Source: Anaeromyxobacter paludicola
GTDB lineage: Bacteria; Myxococcota; Myxococcia; Myxococcales; Anaeromyxobacteraceae
Assembly (NCBI RefSeq): GCF_023169965.1
Contig: NZ_AP025592.1
Coordinates: 992,001-1,056,000 of the forward strand
DNA length: 64,000 nucleotides
Direction of reading: 5' to 3'
Shown: positions 5,614-8,685 of the stretch, one piece after another
Layout: each line of letters begins with the position of its first letter
Numbering within the stretch: position 1 is the stretch's first letter
Program-made: the position numbers and the translations under genes
Notes under the pieces: generated by a model
Seen by the model: the letters and a program-made list of their open reading frames with translations, nothing else
Database searches by the model: none
What the model was told of the DNA's origin: nothing

Positions 5614-5678
5614 ATTTCACTTGCAGCGGGGCGAGCCGGTTGTGTATCGGTACCGGCCCCAACTCCGGAGAAGGTCGA

Positions 5679-6401
5679 ATGTACAACCTGCTGATCAGCC
5701 TGGCGGTCGGAGTGGTGGTCACGGCCGCGGTGCGGCTCGGCTTCGGCAGCTGGGTCGCCGCCGTCGTCCCCGGGCTCATCACCGCCGTCGCCGCCTACAT
5801 CGTGCTCGCCCGCCGCTCCCAGAAGCAGCTCGAGGCGCTCTTCGAGGGCATGCAGCGCGAGGTGCAGGCGCAGCGCCCCGAGAAGGCGATCGCCCTCCTC
5901 AAGGGCGGCTTCGCGCTCGCCCCCTGGCAGTTCCTGGTCGCCTCGCAGCTCCACTCGCAGATCGGCGTGCTGCTCTACGTCCAGAAGAGCTTCGACGAGG
6001 CGGCGCCGCACCTCGAGAAGAGCTTCTCGCGCCACTGGCTCGCGCAGGCCATGCGGGCCGTCTCGCGCTTCCGCCGGAACGACCTCGCCGGGATGGAGCA
6101 GGTCTTCGAGGAGGCGACCAAGGTCTCCAAGAAGGAGGGCCTGCTCTGGGCGGCCTGGGCCTGGTGCCTCGAGAAGGCCGGCCGGCACGCCGACGCGGTG
6201 AAGGTCATCGGCCGCGGCGTGGCGGCCAATCCCAGCGACGAGAAGCTCAAGTCGGCGCAGCAATCGCTGGCCAACGGGAAGCGGCTCAAGCTCGGGAAGA
6301 CCTACGGGCAGGAGTGGTTCGCGCTCCACCTCGAGGCGCCGCCCACCGTGATGGGGCCGCCGCCGCGCGGCTTCCGGCGGCAGATGTACCAGCGGCACTG
6401 A
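5679..6401 (+). CDS. TPR-type membrane protein, unknown function
   Basis: A 240-residue protein starting at ATG with ggagaagg upstream. Residues about 3-45 form two closely spaced transmembrane helices (YNLLISLAVGVVV and a second at LITAVAAYIVLA). The remainder is alpha-helical with tetratricopeptide-like repeats (KAIALLKGGFALAPW, DEAAPHLEKSFSRHW, GRHADAVKVIGRGVAANP). Such proteins usually scaffold complexes at the membrane. No specific function can be assigned. It ends just before a hairpin separating it from the convergent selenoprotein-like gene. Confidence 0.7.
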   Translation: MYNLLISLAVGVVVTAAVRLGFGSWVAAVVPGLITAVAAYIVLARRSQKQLEALFEGMQREVQAQRPEKAIALLKGGFALAPWQFLVASQLHSQIGVLLYVQKSFDEAAPHLEKSFSRHWLAQAMRAVSRFRRNDLAGMEQVFEEATKVSKKEGLLWAAWAWCLEKAGRHADAVKVIGRGVAANPSDEKLKSAQQSLANGKRLKLGKTYGQEWFALHLEAPPTVMGPPPRGFRRQMYQRH

Positions 6402-6453
6402 GGCCAGCGACCGGCCGCCCCGCCGGCCGCCCTGCCCTCGTCCGTGAGCGTCG

Positions 6454-6472
6454 GGGTCCCCGCCGGGGACCC
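6454..6472. terminator. Intergenic hairpin between convergent genes
   Basis: A perfect 8-bp inverted repeat (gggtcccc / ggggaccc) with a 3-base loop lies between the ends of the TPR gene and the convergent glutaredoxin-like gene. No T-tract follows on either strand, so termination by this element alone is uncertain. Confidence 0.35.
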
Positions 6473-6483
6473 GGTCAGACGTG

Positions 6484-6699
6484 TCAGGTGCCGCCGAAGC
6501 CGAGCGTCACCCGGCCGTCCTCCACGATGAGCGGGACGCGCCGGTCGCCCAGCGAATAGTCGAGGAAGCGCCGCATCGCCTCGGCGTCCTTGCGCACGTC
6601 GTGGTACTCGAACCCGATCCCTCGCTTGCCGAAGTCCACACGGGCGGCGTTGGTGTAGGGTCAGGTGTCCTTACCGAAGATCTCGACCTTGGCGGGCAT
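6484..6699 (-). CDS. Glutaredoxin-like selenoprotein (in-frame UGA at codon 13)
   Basis: From the ATG at 6699 (ggagg ribosome site upstream) the frame reads twelve codons, an in-frame UGA at 6661-6663, then 58 more codons to a second UGA at 6484-6486: 71 residues if the first UGA is read as selenocysteine. The readthrough product is a minimal glutaredoxin fold. It has strand KVEIFG, active site T-U-P-Y-T where glutaredoxins have CPYC, a helix, the cis-proline motif RVPLIVEDG, and the terminal Gly pair of GFGGT. Selenocysteine thus occupies the catalytic position. This fits the short glutaredoxin-like 'Uxx-star' (seleno)protein group I recall. A SECIS-like hairpin follows the UGA. Ordinary annotation would miss or split the gene. 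Confidence 0.85.
6628..6648 (-). promoter_or_regulatory. Candidate bacterial SECIS element
   Basis: In the mRNA, starting 13 bases after the UGA, gccg pairs with cggc. An inner cc/gg pair closes a 5-base loop, cgugu, whose second base is G, 20 bases past the UGA. A G in the first two loop positions, 16-37 bases from the UGA, matches the published bacterial SECIS rule. Folding was done by eye. Confidence 0.55.
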
Positions 6700-6882
6700 C
6701 CGTTCCTCCAGGGATTGGCACATCCCCCGTTCGGCCACCATTGTCGGATCGGGCGTCTCGAGAGGCAAGGACGCCGGCGCCGACTCGCGTGGGGCAGTCC
6801 CACCGCGGCGTCTGGATGCGGCCCTGCGCGCCGCTGTAACGTGGCCTCGGGGTCGCCGCGCCTCGACGCGGCGGGGGGTTCG

Positions 6883-8685
6883 ATGCAGCGAGGCGAGGAA
6901 GGGAGCCGGGGCGACGGCCACCGCGGCGACGGCGACGCCGGCGCGCGGGCCCTGCGCGAGGATCTCGCCCGGAGCCAGGCCGACTGCGCCCAGATGATCG
7001 ACGCCAACCGCCGGCTCCGCGAGGCCGCGGAGCGGCGCGAGGAGATCCTCGCCACCTGCGCGCGCGACCTGCGCGGCCCCGCCGACCAGCTCCTGCTGCA
7101 CGCCCGGGCGCTCCTGCAGGGCGCCGCCGGGCCGCTCGCGCCCCCGCAGGCGGAGGCCATCGAGGCGATCGCGCGGGAGTCCCGGCAGCTGCTCCATCTC
7201 GCCGACGACCTCCTCGCCCTGCGCGCGCTCGACTCCGGCGCCGAGCCGATCGAGCGCGCCCCCGCCGATCTGCGGGAGGTCGCGCAGGGCGCGTGCGCGC
7301 TCGTGGAGCCGCTGGCGCGCGAGCGGGAGGTGCGGCTCGCGCCCGAGCTGCCGGCCCATCCGGTGCCGCTCTCCCTCGACGCCCTGCGGCTGCGGGAGGC
7401 GCTCGGGACCCTGCTCGCCCGCGCCGTCGAGCAGGCCCGCCCCGGGGCGGTCCTCGAGCTCGCCGTGTCGCCCCTCCCGGCGGGCGCGCGGGTCACCCTC
7501 GCGGCCGCGCGGCAGCCCCACGTCACCCCGGCCCCCTCGGGCGCGCGCCGGCCGCAGCGCGCCGGGGAGCCGCCGCCCGCCGGCGCCCCCGTCCGCCTGC
7601 TCGCCCGGATCGGGGGCCTGGGGCTCGCGCTCGCCCGCGCCGTCGTGGAGCTGCACGGCGGGACGCTCGAGGTGGACGGCGATCCCCTCCACCCGGAAGC
7701 GGTCCGGGTGGATCTGCCGGAGGCGCCGCCGCCCGGCCGGGCGCGGCCGCGCGACGGCGAGCGCGCGCGGATCCTGGTGGTCGAGGACGACCCCGACGCC
7801 CGCGCGGCGCTGGAGCTCCTGCTCGAGAGCGGCTACGACGTCGAGAGCGCCGAGGACGGCGAGCAGGGCCTGGCCCGCTGTCGCGCCGACCTGCCGGACC
7901 TCGTCCTCATGGACGTGTTCATGCCGCGCATGGACGGGTTCGCCGCGCTGGCGGCGCTCCGGACCGATCCCCGCACCGCGGAGGTGCCGGTGATCCTGGT
8001 CTCCGGGCGCGGCGACGACCTCACCCGCGCCGGCAGCCTCGACCTCGGCGCGGTGGACTTCCTGCAGAAGCCCTTCTCCGAGCGCGAGCTCAAGGCCCGG
8101 ATCGACCGGACCCTGCGGCTCACCCGGCGGCAGCGGCAGCTGCGCGAGCTGGCGCAGACCGATCCCCTCACCGGGCTGCCCAACCGGCGCGCCTTCCGCA
8201 CCCAGCTGGCCGAGGAGCTGAAGCGGGCCCGCCGCGCCTACGGGCCGGTCTCGTGCGTGATGATCGACATGGACGACCTGAAGCCGGTGAACGACACGCT
8301 CGGCCACGCCGCCGGCGACCGCGCCATCGCCTCGATGGCCGAGGCGATCCGGACCGAGCTGCGCGAGACCGACTTCGGCGCGCGCTACGGCGGCGACGAG
8401 TTCGTGGTCCTCCTCCCCCACACCGGCGCGGCCGAGGCCCGGGTCTTCGCCGAGCGCGTCCGCTCGCGCCTGCTCGCGACGGTGCTCGACCTCGAGGGGC
8501 ACGCGGTCCCGCTGCGGGCCTCCTTCGGCGTGGCCTCGCTGGAGGAGGGCGGCGAGGGCAGCGGCGAGGACCTCGTCCGCCGGGCCGACGCGGCGCTCTA
8601 CCAGGCGAAGCGGACCGGCCGAGGCGGCGTGGCGGTGCACGGGCACCCCTCCCCGCCCGAGGCCGACGTCGCCGCGCCCCACTGA
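6883..8685 (+). CDS. Pseudokinase-receiver-diguanylate cyclase fusion
   Basis: A 600-residue cytoplasmic protein. Residues about 20-285 resemble HisKA plus HATPase_c. However, the His-box reads CARDLRGP, where active kinases have SHDLRxP, so the phosphoacceptor histidine is Arg, and the N-box is degenerate. A receiver domain follows (ILVVEDDPDARAAL; acceptor Asp in LMDVFMPRMDG; KPF lysine). The C-terminal GGDEF domain has an intact GGDEF signature and an RETD inhibitory site exactly five residues before it. It should make cyclic di-GMP under product feedback and be controlled by phosphorylation from another kinase. The start is the ATG at 6883; the upstream part of the frame covers the selenoprotein gene. 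Confidence 0.85.
   Translation: MQRGEEGSRGDGHRGDGDAGARALREDLARSQADCAQMIDANRRLREAAERREEILATCARDLRGPADQLLLHARALLQGAAGPLAPPQAEAIEAIARESRQLLHLADDLLALRALDSGAEPIERAPADLREVAQGACALVEPLAREREVRLAPELPAHPVPLSLDALRLREALGTLLARAVEQARPGAVLELAVSPLPAGARVTLAAARQPHVTPAPSGARRPQRAGEPPPAGAPVRLLARIGGLGLALARAVVELHGGTLEVDGDPLHPEAVRVDLPEAPPPGRARPRDGERARILVVEDDPDARAALELLLESGYDVESAEDGEQGLARCRADLPDLVLMDVFMPRMDGFAALAALRTDPRTAEVPVILVSGRGDDLTRAGSLDLGAVDFLQKPFSERELKARIDRTLRLTRRQRQLRELAQTDPLTGLPNRRAFRTQLAEELKRARRAYGPVSCVMIDMDDLKPVNDTLGHAAGDRAIASMAEAIRTELRETDFGARYGGDEFVVLLPHTGAAEARVFAERVRSRLLATVLDLEGHAVPLRASFGVASLEEGGEGSGEDLVRRADAALYQAKRTGRGGVAVHGHPSPPEADVAAPH

Follow-up and report, generated by a model that had tools for sequence, protein, structure and literature searches.

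A probable two-selenocysteine glutaredoxin-like protein of UXX-star family 1 in Anaeromyxobacter paludicola

The window, a stretch of 64,000 nucleotides from the Anaeromyxobacter paludicola contig NZ_AP025592.1, carries on its minus strand a short gene that, with a probability we place at about 0.93, encodes a 74-residue glutaredoxin-like protein of UXX-star family 1 with two selenocysteine (Sec) residues, both specified by UGA codons that would be decoded with the help of hairpins. The original prediction had described a single-Sec protein of 71 residues. All of the elements from which it was built (ATG at 6699, a GGAGG site, UGA as codon 13 and 58 open codons thereafter) are present in the sequence, and Sec at position 13 is supported by relatives and by the decoding machinery, but a second Sec was missed: the UGA at 6486–6484, which had been taken for the stop, is most likely a second Sec codon, with the gene reaching 6475. 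New here are the corrected 3′ end, a candidate SECIS element in the 3′ UTR, and the finding that Sec13 is exchangeable whereas Sec72 is fixed. The features are as follows, with positions counted in the window.

5640–6401, plus strand: convergent neighbour, TPR protein (Pfam TPR_14, 1.3e-10; synteny)
6454–6472, minus strand: candidate SECIS 2, stem of 8 bp GGGUCCCC/GGGGACCC, loop GGC (shuffles, relatives, no T-run)
6475–6699, minus strand: complete UXX-star family 1 gene, 74 codons (Sec13, Sec72) plus stop (NF041114, two in-frame TGA inside the match)
6475–6477, minus strand: true stop codon UGA (by comparison with the relatives)
6481–8685, plus strand: divergent neighbour, histidine kinase/response regulator/GGDEF protein (Pfam GGDEF, Response_reg, HisKA)
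6484–6486, minus strand: UGA codon 72, read as Sec72 (pattern TGA-x-(V/I)-stop in 60 relatives; Cys in a Thermus homologue)
6628–6648, minus strand: candidate in-frame SECIS 1, GCCG-CC-CGUGU-GG-ACUU-CGGC (comparative motif; weak in the window alone)
6661–6663, minus strand: UGA codon 13, read as Sec13, the catalytic N-terminal position (codon comparison of 60 relatives, and tree)
6699–6697, minus strand: start codon ATG (seen in the sequence)
6705–6709, minus strand: ribosome-binding site GGAGG, 5 nt upstream of the ATG (seen in the sequence)

Gene product and family assignment

The last codons of the gene, TGA CAC GTC TGA at 6486–6475, read as Sec72-His-Val-stop, and the full readthrough product is MPAKVEIFGKDT-U-PYTNAARVDFGKRGIGFEYHDVRKDAEAMRRFLDYSLGDRRVPLIVEDGRVTLGFGGT-U-HV. 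With TGA read through the frame spans 899 codons, so an open frame is in itself little proof, and the gene is judged real because of its homology to PF00462 and NF041114. The Pfam glutaredoxin model PF00462 matches residues 5–63 (37.1 bits, 3.6e-9), and codons 14–71, downstream of UGA13, are glutaredoxin-like. The glutaredoxin C-terminal part that had been described, with VP and GFGG, is thus present, as is the TUPYT site. Against NF041114 (curated cut-off 72 bits), the 71-residue product scores 97.2 bits (4.9e-28) and the 74-residue product 106.1 bits over model positions 1–70 of 70, a gain of 9 bits, and in a genome-wide search with this profile the match extends to model position 70 across two TGA codons. 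The model NF041212 matches with 86.8 bits (cut-off 66).

Judged by sequence similarity, the protein is a member of an already catalogued family, NF041114 “UXX-star selenoprotein family 1”, a name that we read as a description of the C terminus, i.e., Sec, two residues, stop. The family is entered in a 2026 review as “Distant Grx-like protein 1”, with two Sec and a UxxT site (PMC13188914). The likeness comprises the whole-length match, Sec in UxxT, and the Sec-x-x-stop C terminus, and there is no difference of any weight, residue 73 being His here and Gly in most relatives. The expected omission of the gene by automatic annotation is only partly borne out, since an NCBI model exists for the family. 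Nevertheless, a standard gene list could show nothing at this position or a stub of 12 codons, where the genome in fact gains a probable two-Sec protein, and a C-terminal Sec can pass for a stop even when the first Sec has already been recognised.

The parent group is NF041212, the Uxx-star glutaredoxin-like (seleno)protein subfamily, which is broader and includes Cys forms such as the one in Thermus; that member carries Cys in both positions and runs beyond two residues after the second Cys. With the classical dithiol glutaredoxins (Escherichia coli Grx3; the selenoprotein Grx with UxxC), the protein shares the thioredoxin fold, the VP cis-proline, and an active site after strand 1. Unlike in these, the hallmark CPYC dithiol site is absent and the site is instead UPYT (U13-P-Y-T16), where Thr replaces the second Cys; furthermore, the C-terminal helix is missing after GFGG, and there is an additional C-terminal Sec.

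Candidate SECIS elements

For comparison, 60 relatives including the window gene were collected by protein similarity across genome contigs and by whole-genome searches that covered the class and the phylum, together with the phylum to which genome G199 belongs. Codon 13 is TGA in 44 of these, across several phyla, and a Cys codon (TGC or TGT) in the remaining 16; the search for homologues with U or C at this position, proposed as a check of the original prediction, thus gave a positive answer. A bacterial selenoprotein is expected to have a SECIS hairpin after each Sec UGA, with the loop 16–37 nt away and a G at one of its first two positions. The best hairpin of each gene was chosen as the stem, and shuffled sequences were handled by the identical choice.

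The hairpin that had been noted some 20 bases past UGA13 does have G in the second position of its loop motif, CGUGU, at about 18–20 nt from the UGA, but in the window alone it is no better than chance, with 28.9% of shuffles matching its score and a folding z of +0.36. The support for SECIS 1 is comparative. The string GCCCGTG, which places CGU(G) in the small loop, occurs in 39 of the 44 Sec13 genes and in 0 of the 16 Cys13 genes (p = 1.4e-10, uncorrected for relatedness), and elsewhere in these genes CGT is a minority Arg codon (17/208). RNAalifold on 15 family sequences returned a consensus stem of only 5 pairs with a covariation term near zero, a weak consensus that is explained by loop lengths varying between sequences, which puts the stems out of register. 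Two Cys13 genes (L038 and L040) retain CGT at Arg20, preceded by GCG instead of GCC, and the sequence after their codon 13 looks like a half-decayed SECIS.

The second hairpin, GGGUCCCC-GGC-GGGGACCC, lies wholly in the 3′ UTR; its stem starts 2 nt past the true stop, its loop lies 19 nt after UGA72, and its score is matched by 0.55% of shuffles. A G-loop hairpin after codon 72 scores at least 15 in 90% of the relatives, versus 5.7% of shuffles and 7% at a control position 60 nt downstream. The commonest loops are GGUC and GGUCC, with GGU, CGU or GG in most relatives, and the loop starts 14–21 nt past UGA72 in 56 of the 60 genes. Stable GC hairpins often follow genes in GC-rich genomes, and the stem here begins just past the stop codon, as would be expected if the hairpin were an intrinsic terminator or an unrelated 3′-end structure. 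However, no terminator-like site with a T-run was found in 6350–7100, on which ground an intrinsic terminator was rejected, and the combination of this loop distance with GGU, CGU or GG loops is rare in the random and downstream controls, so that an origin of this kind appears unlikely. The hairpin is best read as a 3′-UTR SECIS that would serve Sec72. Its spacing and loop fit the bacterial SECIS model of the 2026 review, except for the location beyond the stop, as the SECIS elements of bacteria are situated within coding regions according to that review (PMC13188914).

Codons 13 and 72 among the relatives

Codon 72 is TGA in all 60 relatives, also in those with Cys13, and never TAA or TAG. 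It is followed in every case by one variable residue, Val (56) or Ile (4), and a stop; this stop, three codons past UGA72, is TGA in 46, TAG in 12 and TAA in 2. The third bases of the Val codon and the final stops vary as in coding sequence. Since an ordinary stop would have no need to be TGA every time, nor to be trailed every time by another stop three codons on, UGA72 does not behave as one. These results bear on the 71-residue product, in which UGA13 would encode Sec and UGA72 would end the protein. UGA is a normal stop in the genetic code, and one that precedes such a short tail is easily mistaken for the end, but the pattern in the 60 relatives, the higher NF041114 score and complete model coverage of the 74-residue product, the Cys at position 72 in a Thermus homologue, and the G-loop hairpin downstream of UGA72 all count against it. 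We have therefore rejected the shorter product, and consider it very improbable.

The homologue in question, WP_014511322.1 from a Thermus thermophilus plasmid, has Cys at both positions 13 and 72, which indicates that Cys/Sec exchange occurs at position 72 too, although this is a single homologue, from the broader subfamily. Its gene (L121:2998-3258, plasmid pTHTHE1601) is located among the hydrogenase maturation genes hypD, hypE and hypF, and adjoins a SIS-domain gene and a PIG-L deacetylase gene; the hyp setting may give a clue to what the broader family does. A protein from Zixibacteria (L019:765-986) has a classical CPYC site together with a C-terminal UGA-x-Ile-stop, and C-terminal Sec would thus occur beside a dithiol site as well.

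When the 60 proteins were placed on a tree with the Sec/Cys columns masked, parsimony required 9 Sec/Cys changes at position 13, 5 of which are forced by well-supported branches; the tree is based on only 72 columns, and many of its forks are unresolved. Cys13 genes surround one gene with Sec13 (L048). The closest Sec/Cys pair in the set (L012 and L014, from different MAGs) consists of near-identical proteins with Cys and Sec, respectively, as residue 13. Comparison of the relatives shows that the predicted Sec72 is conserved more strongly than Sec13. We regard it as probable that Sec72, by way of a SECIS wholly in the 3′ UTR, is an obligatory residue of the family, and that Sec13 at the glutaredoxin position is freely exchanged for Cys, with at least five forced changes. 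If so, one short mRNA would harbour two SECIS elements that are selected differently, in that a change to Cys13 entails loss of the first and the second is always kept. The family would then offer natural contrasts for Sec decoding, with Sec13 and Cys13 orthologues beside a constant Sec72 that has its SECIS past the stop.

In a single genome, a glutaredoxin pseudogene disrupted by UGA would look alike, with TGA replacing the catalytic Cys codon, and so would an error in sequencing. Here, TGA is found at the same codon in 44 relatives from several phyla, and gene order around the locus is conserved in the family. Sequence conservation continues past UGA13 to the protein end, contrary to the stop of conservation at the UGA that had been named as grounds for abandoning the selenoprotein. 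A pseudogene or sequencing error was rejected on account of the shared UGA13, and we give it scarcely any weight.

Selenocysteine machinery, fold and locus

The machinery that had been proposed as a further check is present in the 4.59-Mb genome, a single contig: tRNA-Sec (75 bits, anticodon TCA), selA (514 bits), selB (320 bits, pieces joined), and selD (391 bits), the product of which is itself a selenoprotein with Sec in SHGAGUACK. If UGA had become a sense codon throughout the genome, the in-frame UGAs would be explained equally well, but this is rejected as a negligible prospect given this dedicated Sec system and the use of UGA as the true stop of the gene itself. Within the taxonomic family, selA is above its cut-off in 24 of 24 genomes. 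Among the distant genomes, selB exceeds its own cut-off in 8 of 11, and the other 3, for which completeness is not given, count against the two-Sec reading. Three genomes of the family (G016, G034 and G035, 98–100% complete) and the genus g4 have selA, with no UXX-star 1 gene found at the search threshold, which suggests that the gene has been lost repeatedly within the taxonomic family.

AlphaFold2, applied to 52 family members, gives a mean pLDDT of 92.8, and the nearest folds in the PDB are glutaredoxins and related redoxins. Invariant columns are 13, 56 (the cis-Pro) and 72, with U read as C in the 52 rows, which include one dithiol form that keeps C13. T16, in the place of the second active-site Cys, is near-invariant (at least 90% conserved). 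Two Sec codons and a predicted glutaredoxin fold are shown by comparison. We propose that SelB and Sec-tRNA(UCA) decode UGA13 with the aid of the short hairpin within the coding sequence, and UGA72 with that of the strong hairpin just past the true stop. The product would be a minimal glutaredoxin fold devoid of the second active-site Cys, ending with Sec72-His-Val directly after GFGG. Sec13, or Cys13, is the likely attacking residue, and the near-invariant Sec72 could serve as its partner, in a resolving or co-binding role. The pair could form a diselenide or selenenylsulfide in thiol-disulfide or peroxide chemistry, or alternatively bind a soft metal jointly; metal binding has been suggested, without proof, for the UXX-star family (PMC13188914).

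Next to the selenoprotein gene, the TPR gene recurs in 8 contigs of the family and the kinase gene recurs in 6, with Cys13 contigs among them. As these neighbours are shared also by Cys13 contigs, the Sec/Cys exchange has taken place at orthologous loci. At its longest, from a GTG at 6481, the plus-strand reading frame of the kinase/GGDEF gene runs antisense across the entire selenoprotein gene. Because of this overlap, the real start of the kinase gene is probably at 6883 or later, and a gene caller that chose the GTG at 6481 would conceal the selenoprotein gene.
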